DNA from: Acidobacteriota bacterium
GTDB taxonomy: Bacteria; Acidobacteriota; Terriglobia; UBA7540
Reading direction: 5' to 3'
Assembly: GCA_902812465.1 (NCBI GenBank)
Contig: CADDZE010000008.1
Location: forward strand, 1-64,000
Length of the DNA stretch: 64,000 nucleotides
Shown one piece after another: positions 54,293 to 56,973 of this stretch. Made by a program: the position numbers and the translations under genes. Numbering within the stretch: the stretch's first letter is position 1; every line of letters starts with the position of its first letter. Below the pieces are notes generated by a model. That model made no database searches. It saw only the letters and a list, made by a program, of their open reading frames with translations, and was not told the DNA's origin.

Positions 54293-55069
54293 CTACGTCA
54301 CCGACCTCGCCGCCGCGGGCGGAGCCCCTGCTCGCGCGTTGTAAGCCGCCGCAGCTGCAACCTGGCCAGCAACCAGGATCGACGGCGCAGGAAAGCCGCG
54401 GGCCTGGTGGAGATTTCCAAGATTGCCCAGAAACATCTGCTCCGGCGGCTGTGCGGCGCGAGAGATCAGCAAGCAAGGCGTGTCGTGCGGGAGACCTGCT
54501 GACCCGAGGCGGATGGCAAGCTCCATATAGTCCCTCCCTGGCATGTAGACGACCGCCGTGACGTCCGGCCCCAGCGCGGGCCAGGACGGCTCCGCTCCCG
54601 AGCAATGGTGACCCGTCAAGAACACCACCGAGGAAGCGACATGCCGTTGCGTCAGGGTGATGCGGGCGGAGGCGCAAGCGACTGAGGCAGCGGTAACGCC
54701 AGGCACGATCTCGAAGTCCACGCCAGATTCCCTCAGCGCCCGGATCTCTTCACCGGCGCGGCCGAAGATCAAGGGATCACCACCCTTGAGCCGGACGACC
54801 GTCCAGCCATCCTGCGCATAGGCGATCATCAGGGCGTTAATTTCTTCCTGGGTCATCGTCTGGCGCCCGCAGCCCTTGCCCACGCTGCGCACGGTGGCGC
54901 CCTGGCAGGCCAGGCTTAGGACCTCGGGCGGCACCAGCTCGTCATGCAGGACCACGCTGGCGCTCTGCAGAATGCGAAGGGCCTTGAGCGTGAGCAGCTC
55001 CGGATCACCGGGACCGGCGCCGACCAGGTAGACCTTGCCGCGCTGTGGGCCCCTGGACTGGCGGCTCAT
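54293..55069 (-). CDS. cobA: Uroporphyrinogen-III C-methyltransferase
   Basis: A 258-residue SUMT. KVYLVGAGPGDPELLTLKALRIL is the SAM-binding start, HDELVPPEVL, VRLKGGDPLIFGRAGEE, VPGVTAASVACASARITLTQRHVASSVVFLTGH are standard. It makes precorrin-2, precursor of siroheme. The ATG overlaps the stop of the reductase gene as ATGA, fixing the start, and the reductase needs siroheme, so coupling makes functional sense. The oxidase/ferrochelatase for the last siroheme steps is not in the window. Confidence 0.92.
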   Translation of the reverse strand: MSRQSRGPQRGKVYLVGAGPGDPELLTLKALRILQSASVVLHDELVPPEVLSLACQGATVRSVGKGCGRQTMTQEEINALMIAYAQDGWTVVRLKGGDPLIFGRAGEEIRALRESGVDFEIVPGVTAASVACASARITLTQRHVASSVVFLTGHHCSGAEPSWPALGPDVTAVVYMPGRDYMELAIRLGSAGLPHDTPCLLISRAAQPPEQMFLGNLGNLHQARGFPAPSILVAGQVAAAAAYNARAGAPPAAARSVT

Positions 55070-56973
55070 TTCGACTCCTCGTCCAATTCCAACCGGCCGT
55101 CGCACAGGGTCAGCTTGTAGGCCTTGGCGCGCAAATCGGGGGCGGTTGAGCAAGCACCGGTGCGCAGGTTGAAGCGAAAGCCGTGACCAGGACAGATCAC
55201 CTCTTCACCTTCGATCATGCCCTCTGCCAGCGGAACGCCTTCGTGCGGGCAGGCGTTCTGAAGGGCGTAGAGCCGGCCTCCGCGCTTGAAGACAGCCAGC
55301 TCGGCGCCCTTCAGCCGCACAGTTGTTCCGCACCCTTCGGACAAGTTAAGCACGGCCTGCGCCGGATCCTCGCTCGGGCGGGGCGGATTCTCCGCCGCGG
55401 GTGATACGGGCGGCGAGCCGGCAGGCCCAGCCGACCAGGCTGGGCCTGCCGGCGGTGAGGAAGGCACGCTCCGTAGCTGCTCGCGGACGGCGTCAAAGGT
55501 GCCAAAGCGAAAGAGACCCTCCAGGACTGGTTCGAGGCGGTCGCAGGGAACATCTTCCATCAGCTTCACGGCCAGGTTGGGGCGGGGACCGGACGAGCCG
55601 CCCACGAAGACGTCCACCGCATCGACGATCCCCTCTTCGGTTTTCACCCGTTTGCCCACCAGCCCGACATCGGCCACGCTGTGGTTGCCGCATCCGGCCG
55701 GGCAGCCCGACCAATGAAACGTCAGCGGTTTGTTCTTGGGCAGGACGGCTTCAAGCGCCCGGGCCAGTTTCAGCGCCCGATTCTTCGTTTCGATCAGCGC
55801 CAAATTGCAATAGTCGATCCCCGTGCAGCTCACCAGGCCGCGCAGGATGGGGGGAGGCTCGTAGCGCAATTCCTGGAGCAAGGGCTCCACCGTCAGGTCG
55901 CCAATCTTGCGGTCCGGAATATTGGGCAGGATGACGTTTTGCCCGGTAGTCAGCCGGATCTCGCCGTTGCCGTAAGCTTCGGCAAGGCGCGCCAGCTCCA
56001 ACAGCTGATCGGAAGTGAGGCGGCCGACGGGGACGCAGAGTCCCGCGTAATTCAGCCCCGGCTGCTTCTGGCGGAACACGCCAACGTGGTCGCGGCTATG
56101 CGCCAGGCGCGCGTCGCGGCCCGCGCGCTCCAGCTGGCGTCCCAGCCGCTCCTCGAGTACGCGGCGCAGCTTTACGGTTCCCCAGGCGTCCACAAGAAAG
56201 GCGAAGCGTGCCTTGGCCCGGACGTCCCGCGGCCCGTGATCACGAAAGATCAGCACCAGGGCGCTGGCCAACTCGGCGGCCGCGGCCGGCTCGACGAAGA
56301 CATCTAGCTCCGAGGCGATGCGGTATCCCCCCGAGCCGAGCTTGCCCCCCACCAGGACGTTGAACCCCTCGACCCGCCTGGTGCCCTCTTCGCGGATGGC
56401 GGGAACCAGGGCCAGGTCCTGTGTCTCGGCGTGGGTGCAGTTTTCCTTGCAGCCGGTAATGGTGACGTTAAACTTGCGCGGAAGGTTGGTGTAGGCGCGG
56501 TTGCCGATGAAGATTTCGGTGAACTGGCGGGCGATCGCCGAAGCGTCCAACAGCTCGTTGGGAGTCAGACCGGCCACCGGGCATCCCACCACGTTGCGCA
56601 CGTTGTCCATCCCGGTCTGCAGCGTAGTGAGCCCCACCGCATTCAGGCGATCCCAAATCAGCGGTACGTGCTCCACCCTGAACCAGCGCAACTGAATCTG
56701 CTGGCGGGTGGTGATGTCCACGAACCCTTTGCCGAATTCCTTGCTAATAGCAGCCAGCGTGATGAACTGGGCCGAGCGGCTGATGCCGTTGGGAATGCGC
56801 ACACGCATCATGAAGTGGCCTGGGGTCCGCCGGCGGAAAAAGACCCCCAGCCACTTCAGTCGCTCCCGGTCAGCCTCGCTGATGTTTTCCCAGCCTTCCC
56901 GGGCGAACCGGGGAAGATCCTGCAGGGTGTCGAGCCCGTCCTTCTCCCGCTTGTATTCTTCAATCTTGCTCAT
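55066..56973 (-). CDS. Siroheme nitrite/sulfite reductase fused to a Rieske ferredoxin domain
   Basis: A 635-residue fusion. Residues about 1-500 are a NirA/SiR-type reductase with both duplicated halves; C-T-G-I-D-Y-C and CPAGC (the C-x5-C and CxxxC ligands to [4Fe-4S]-siroheme) lie in the second half. Residues about 500-545 are a Pro/Ala/Gly/Ser linker. The C terminus is a Rieske domain like NirD, with CPHEG and CPGHGF as CxH and CxxH ligands. Ferredoxin-type electron entry through the fused domain is inferred. Nitrite is slightly favoured over sulfite because of the NirD-like domain. Confidence 0.87.
   Translation of the reverse strand: MSKIEEYKREKDGLDTLQDLPRFAREGWENISEADRERLKWLGVFFRRRTPGHFMMRVRIPNGISRSAQFITLAAISKEFGKGFVDITTRQQIQLRWFRVEHVPLIWDRLNAVGLTTLQTGMDNVRNVVGCPVAGLTPNELLDASAIARQFTEIFIGNRAYTNLPRKFNVTITGCKENCTHAETQDLALVPAIREEGTRRVEGFNVLVGGKLGSGGYRIASELDVFVEPAAAAELASALVLIFRDHGPRDVRAKARFAFLVDAWGTVKLRRVLEERLGRQLERAGRDARLAHSRDHVGVFRQKQPGLNYAGLCVPVGRLTSDQLLELARLAEAYGNGEIRLTTGQNVILPNIPDRKIGDLTVEPLLQELRYEPPPILRGLVSCTGIDYCNLALIETKNRALKLARALEAVLPKNKPLTFHWSGCPAGCGNHSVADVGLVGKRVKTEEGIVDAVDVFVGGSSGPRPNLAVKLMEDVPCDRLEPVLEGLFRFGTFDAVREQLRSVPSSPPAGPAWSAGPAGSPPVSPAAENPPRPSEDPAQAVLNLSEGCGTTVRLKGAELAVFKRGGRLYALQNACPHEGVPLAEGMIEGEEVICPGHGFRFNLRTGACSTAPDLRAKAYKLTLCDGRLELDEESK
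55417..55453. repeat. Perfect 16-bp palindrome inside the reductase-Rieske linker
   Basis: GCCGGCAGGCCCAGCC (55417-55432), loop GACCA, GGCTGGGCCTGCCGGC (55438-55453). It lies in frame in the coding sequence and encodes part of the Pro/Ala/Gly linker (PAGPAWSAGPAGS). The arms match perfectly. No second copy was noticed in the window. Confidence 0.8.

Follow-up and report, generated by a model that had tools for sequence, protein, structure and literature searches.

The linker joining the reductase and Rieske domains of a fused nitrite reductase gene carries a perfect palindrome with 16-bp arms, and the evidence favors, with reasonable though not full confidence, a one-off, local and lineage-specific inverted duplication in an unconstrained linker, where it was tolerated and has no dedicated role. 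Its single copy and its absence from related enzymes make it look like a one-off copying accident and not a mobile or conserved element. The finding is a single mutation, probably an ordinary one, in a linker that tolerates change. As a clear case of a DNA-level event in a protein linker, which it probably lengthened, it is of modest importance; it opens no new class of elements. Feature coordinates (Table 1) refer to the window, i.e. the whole 64,000-nt stretch of DNA that was analysed.

Table 1. Positions of the fused reductase gene, its linker and hairpin, and the adjacent gene in the window.
Feature	Coordinates	Strand	Remarks
Ferredoxin-type assimilatory nitrite reductase (NirA family) with C-terminal NirD-like Rieske domain	55066..56973	-	635 aa
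Interdomain linker, Pro/Ala/Gly/Ser-rich	55339..55470	-	45 residues, about aa 502-545
Perfect hairpin	55417..55453	-	16-bp arms GCCGGCAGGCCCAGCC / GGCTGGGCCTGCCGGC, loop TGGTC (- strand letters)
Candidate in-frame lineage-specific insert	55417..55458	-	42 nt, 14 aa (S506-G519); inferred from linker lengths
Uroporphyrinogen-III C-methyltransferase (siroheme synthesis)	54293..55072	-	context gene

Host gene and hairpin structure

Pfam assigns nitrite/sulfite reductase domains followed by a C-terminal Rieske domain to the open reading frame. Among NCBIfam models, the body of the protein is nearest to ferredoxin-nitrite reductase (NF007125, 4e-172, slightly below the cut-off) and its tail to NirD (TIGR02378, 3e-16, below the cut-off). 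AlphaFold2 gives pLDDT values below 50 at aa 495-531, consistent with the linker being a disordered tether that tolerates insertions. With the 635-aa frame open and the linker predicted to be disordered, the palindrome sits in frame at a tolerated protein site. The start codon of the neighboring uroporphyrinogen-III methyltransferase gene overlaps the nitrite reductase stop codon as ATGA, and this overlap suggests that the two genes are translationally coupled.

An exact inverted repeat with a five-base loop, in frame within coding DNA and at the domain junction, had been described in the original prediction, and we found it as described. Its arms (55417-55432 and 55438-55453) are complementary at 16 of 16 positions across a 5-nt spacer, and the palindrome encodes aa 507-519, PPAGPAWSAGPAG, at the reductase/Rieske junction, a peptide in which AGPA is repeated. 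Base pairing ends sharply past both arms with no decayed extension, the pattern expected from one copying event.

The very stable mRNA hairpin that had also been predicted is borne out by RNA folding, which yields −43.9 kcal/mol for a 71-nt region containing the palindrome (z = −4.9 relative to shuffled sequences). Such stability, together with perfect arms located between two domains, would suit an mRNA hairpin maintained by selection, whether for delaying ribosomes while the protein folds co-translationally or for setting how strongly the Rieske domain and the downstream siroheme gene are expressed. However, the hairpin is conserved in none of the fused orthologues examined, and a role as an intrinsic terminator, which we also considered, was dropped as unlikely because the GC-rich stem has no U-tract on its 3' side (the tail reads TCGCCGCC) and the hairpin is not among terminator-like sites. 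Selection for the hairpin therefore appears quite improbable, and we regard as highly improbable a functional in-gene mRNA structure that, in this lineage, sets the timing of translation or the relative expression of the domains and the siroheme gene.

Copy number and comparison with repeat elements

Rickettsia palindromic elements (RPEs), to which the palindrome had been likened, are 100-150 bp long and highly frequent in the genome, with some located within ORFs (PMC3767692). The palindrome examined here resembles them in being palindromic DNA that lies in frame at a tolerated position of a protein-coding gene, but at 37 nt and in a single copy it differs from that repeat family in both size and copy number, and the analogy does not hold. 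A search for further copies of the arms, which the original prediction had proposed, gave no sign of a family either. Single arms with up to two mismatches matched the genome 15+15 times, versus 14+12 times for the same pattern read backwards as a control, and the full palindrome, with three mismatches allowed at most, was found only at this site in a search of 250 class genomes, the 249 others being without it. Because the arms are no commoner than the control and the full palindrome is unique, there is no repeat family, and we rejected a dispersed element on the basis of these arm and whole-palindrome searches. REPs are 20-40 bp long (PMC3733652), a range that includes our palindrome, but they are high-copy and extragenic whereas the palindrome is single and coding. 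The features that would define a MITE or REP are likewise lacking, as the palindrome is single copy and its flanking repeat is not above chance.

An in-frame insertion of a small mobile palindromic element (RPE-like, a REP or a MITE relic), or of the two terminal inverted repeats that an internally deleted transposon had left behind, would nevertheless explain why the linker exceeds that of most orthologues by about 14-15 aa, which fits one 42-nt insert, and why a near-direct repeat (TCACCGCC/TCGCCGCC) lies at the palindrome edges. Against this, 15% of random linker flanks score equally well, and we therefore rejected the near-direct repeat as a target-site duplication. One inverted pair of arm matches does share a contig (C24), but with ordinary genes nearby and no evident transposase, which led us to reject it as transposon terminal repeats. 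Given further that copies do not exceed the control in the own genome and are absent from the 249 others of the class, a mobile origin is unlikely, and its single copy largely refutes it.

A blastn search with a 101-nt query gave one other match of note, at 87% over 38 nt (33/38), in a TonB-dependent receptor-type gene (C4:27939-27976; L088:7939-7976, G000), covering part of one arm and its flank. The second arm is absent there, no palindrome is formed and the reading frame is different. Although this partial match counts against the favored explanation, 31 of 1,500 control segments of matching GC content do equally well, and the similarity is probably due to composition; the TonB-type gene is accordingly a weak candidate as donor of one arm. 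Searches with the linker region returned no match among plasmids and, among phages, weak partial matches alone (E of 0.3 or higher).

Chance expectation and the linker peptide

We counted perfect stems with loops of up to 20 nt in 1.87 Mb, or 48%, of the genome and in four order-3 Markov shuffles of the same sequence (7.5 Mb in total). The genome yielded 59, 18, 5, 3, 2, 1 and 2 stems of 10, 11, 12, 13, 14, 15 and 16 bp, respectively, versus pooled counts of 198, 54, 16, 10 and 1 for stems of 10 to 14 bp in the shuffled sequences, which contained none longer. By extrapolation, stems of at least 16 bp with loops of at most 20 nt are expected about 0.07 times per genome and about 0.001 times per 64-kb window. 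Among stems of at least 14 bp in the 1.87 Mb, only the one at 55417-55453 is both perfect and within a long ORF. The second 16-bp stem (L159:14424) looks terminator-like, because short T runs flank it and it lies outside any long ORF.

Coincidence at the level of the peptide is another reading: an Ala codon (GCN) is able to base-pair with codons for Gly (GGN) or Pro (CCN) on the same strand, so that repetitive APG linkers can readily give hairpins. The AGPA repeats agree with this, and when the linker was synonymously recoded with its amino acids fixed and the codon usage of the genome, stems of at least 11 bp appeared in about 4% of trials. A 16-bp stem, however, was reached in only 14 of 20,000 such recodings and in none of 20,000 trials with either shuffled residues or shuffled codons, and the equally P/A-rich linkers of two orthologues (L194 and L195, GC 0.80-0.83) reach stems of only 6-8 bp. 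Base pairing between Ala, Gly and Pro codons contributes to the stem but falls short alone, and we consider pure coincidence improbable. The recoding and shuffling results therefore indicate a DNA-level event (or selection) beyond the effect of the peptide.

Fold-back reads are able to yield perfect short-loop palindromes, and the draft genome is fragmented (190 contigs, about 4% estimated contamination), so that an assembly or library artefact in the form of a fold-back chimera was also considered. Such an artefact is very unlikely, as the reading frame is preserved, the domains on either side are complete on a single contig, and a chimera would have had to hit an in-frame length by chance.

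Orthologues, linker length and origin

The best homologue is 69% identical over the reductase part. In the genome-contig scan, the closest homologues (L061 and L062, 66-67% identity) stop short of the Rieske domain. Full-length fused orthologues occur at seven loci in the class of G653 (L118 and L179-L184, 57-63% identity) and also in the phylum to which the Methylomirabilota genome G452 belongs (L194-L200 and L203). Fifteen fused orthologues with a readable linker, about 57-65% identical, were compared. Their linkers have 26-36 residues versus 45 here (9-19 aa shorter), lack the palindrome and form a best stem of 8 bp. Because linker residues are not conserved among them, the only shared features are the position of the linker and the fusion itself.

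The proposal that the palindrome created or extended the linker thus survives in part. Fifteen orthologues are fused without it, so it did not create the fusion, which is independent of it and more widespread; extension is compatible with the longer linker seen here. As evidence against an inserted element, the original prediction had named orthologues sharing the amino-acid linker without the palindrome and a lack of other copies in the genome, and this is what we observed, except that the residues of the linker are not shared. Removal of the 14 residues of the candidate insert would restore a linker of orthologue-like length, and the palindrome may account for much of the lineage-specific lengthening. 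The boundaries of this insert are only putative, because the alignment divides the extra length into 8 + 7 residues.

A single template switch can reportedly produce a perfect reverse-complement stem (PMC8794818), and in yeast such switching is reported to change coding sequence where inverted repeats lie (PMC8604942). Template-switch and quasi-palindrome mutations in bacteria, yeast and RNA genes resemble our case in giving a perfect, short, local and single-copy inverted repeat with a small spacer, which may fall in coding DNA (PMC8604942, PMC8794818). Like them, the palindrome is local, perfect and missing from relatives, here from the 15 fused orthologues. Our case differs in that, with the nearest homologue so divergent, the ancestral sequence and switch points are not reconstructable. 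Mitochondrial coding sequences of Nematomorpha also contain perfect inverted repeats, translated in both arms (PMC6649704), but those palindromes are numerous, average 43 bp and in a few cases are common to all four species, in contrast to the single 16-bp stem found here.

According to the inverted duplication that we favor, a polymerase would have switched template within the Pro/Ala/Gly-coding linker during replication of the nirA-Rieske gene, copying one arm as a reverse complement beside itself and so producing the perfect 16-bp hairpin with its 5-nt loop; alternatively, a pre-existing imperfect quasi-palindrome might have been corrected to perfection. The event would have been tolerated because the reading frame was kept and a disordered tether lengthened. 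The palindrome is probably without function and neutral for the enzyme. The palindrome, its single copy, its absence from orthologues, the longer linker, the predicted disorder and the DNA-level excess are observed, and from them the polymerase event, its recency (suggested by the perfect arms) and its neutrality are inferred. The extra length argues against a simple arm copy, which would add 16-21 nt versus an excess nearer 42 nt relative to most orthologues; a second length change or another source of the first arm would therefore be needed.

In the reductase tree the gene is a long single branch, fused forms do not form one clade and accounting for the fused label takes three changes. The NirA-Rieske fusion is found repeatedly in genomes of the Methylomirabilota phylum and in the class of G653, and close homologues are rare in the own phylum, where 4 of the 396 genomes, its own among them, carry one at E ≤ 1e-110. 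A second, divergent reductase-Rieske fusion is present in another family within the same class (L032; G054:C470:20341-22299), with a different, longer linker and no palindrome, which suggests that it arose independently. Three reductase homologues of the Methylomirabilota phylum (G1086:C127 (L205), G1075:C105 and G1090:C184) have one or two in-frame TGA stops in the matched region, and could be disrupted genes or matches that overrun the end of the gene.
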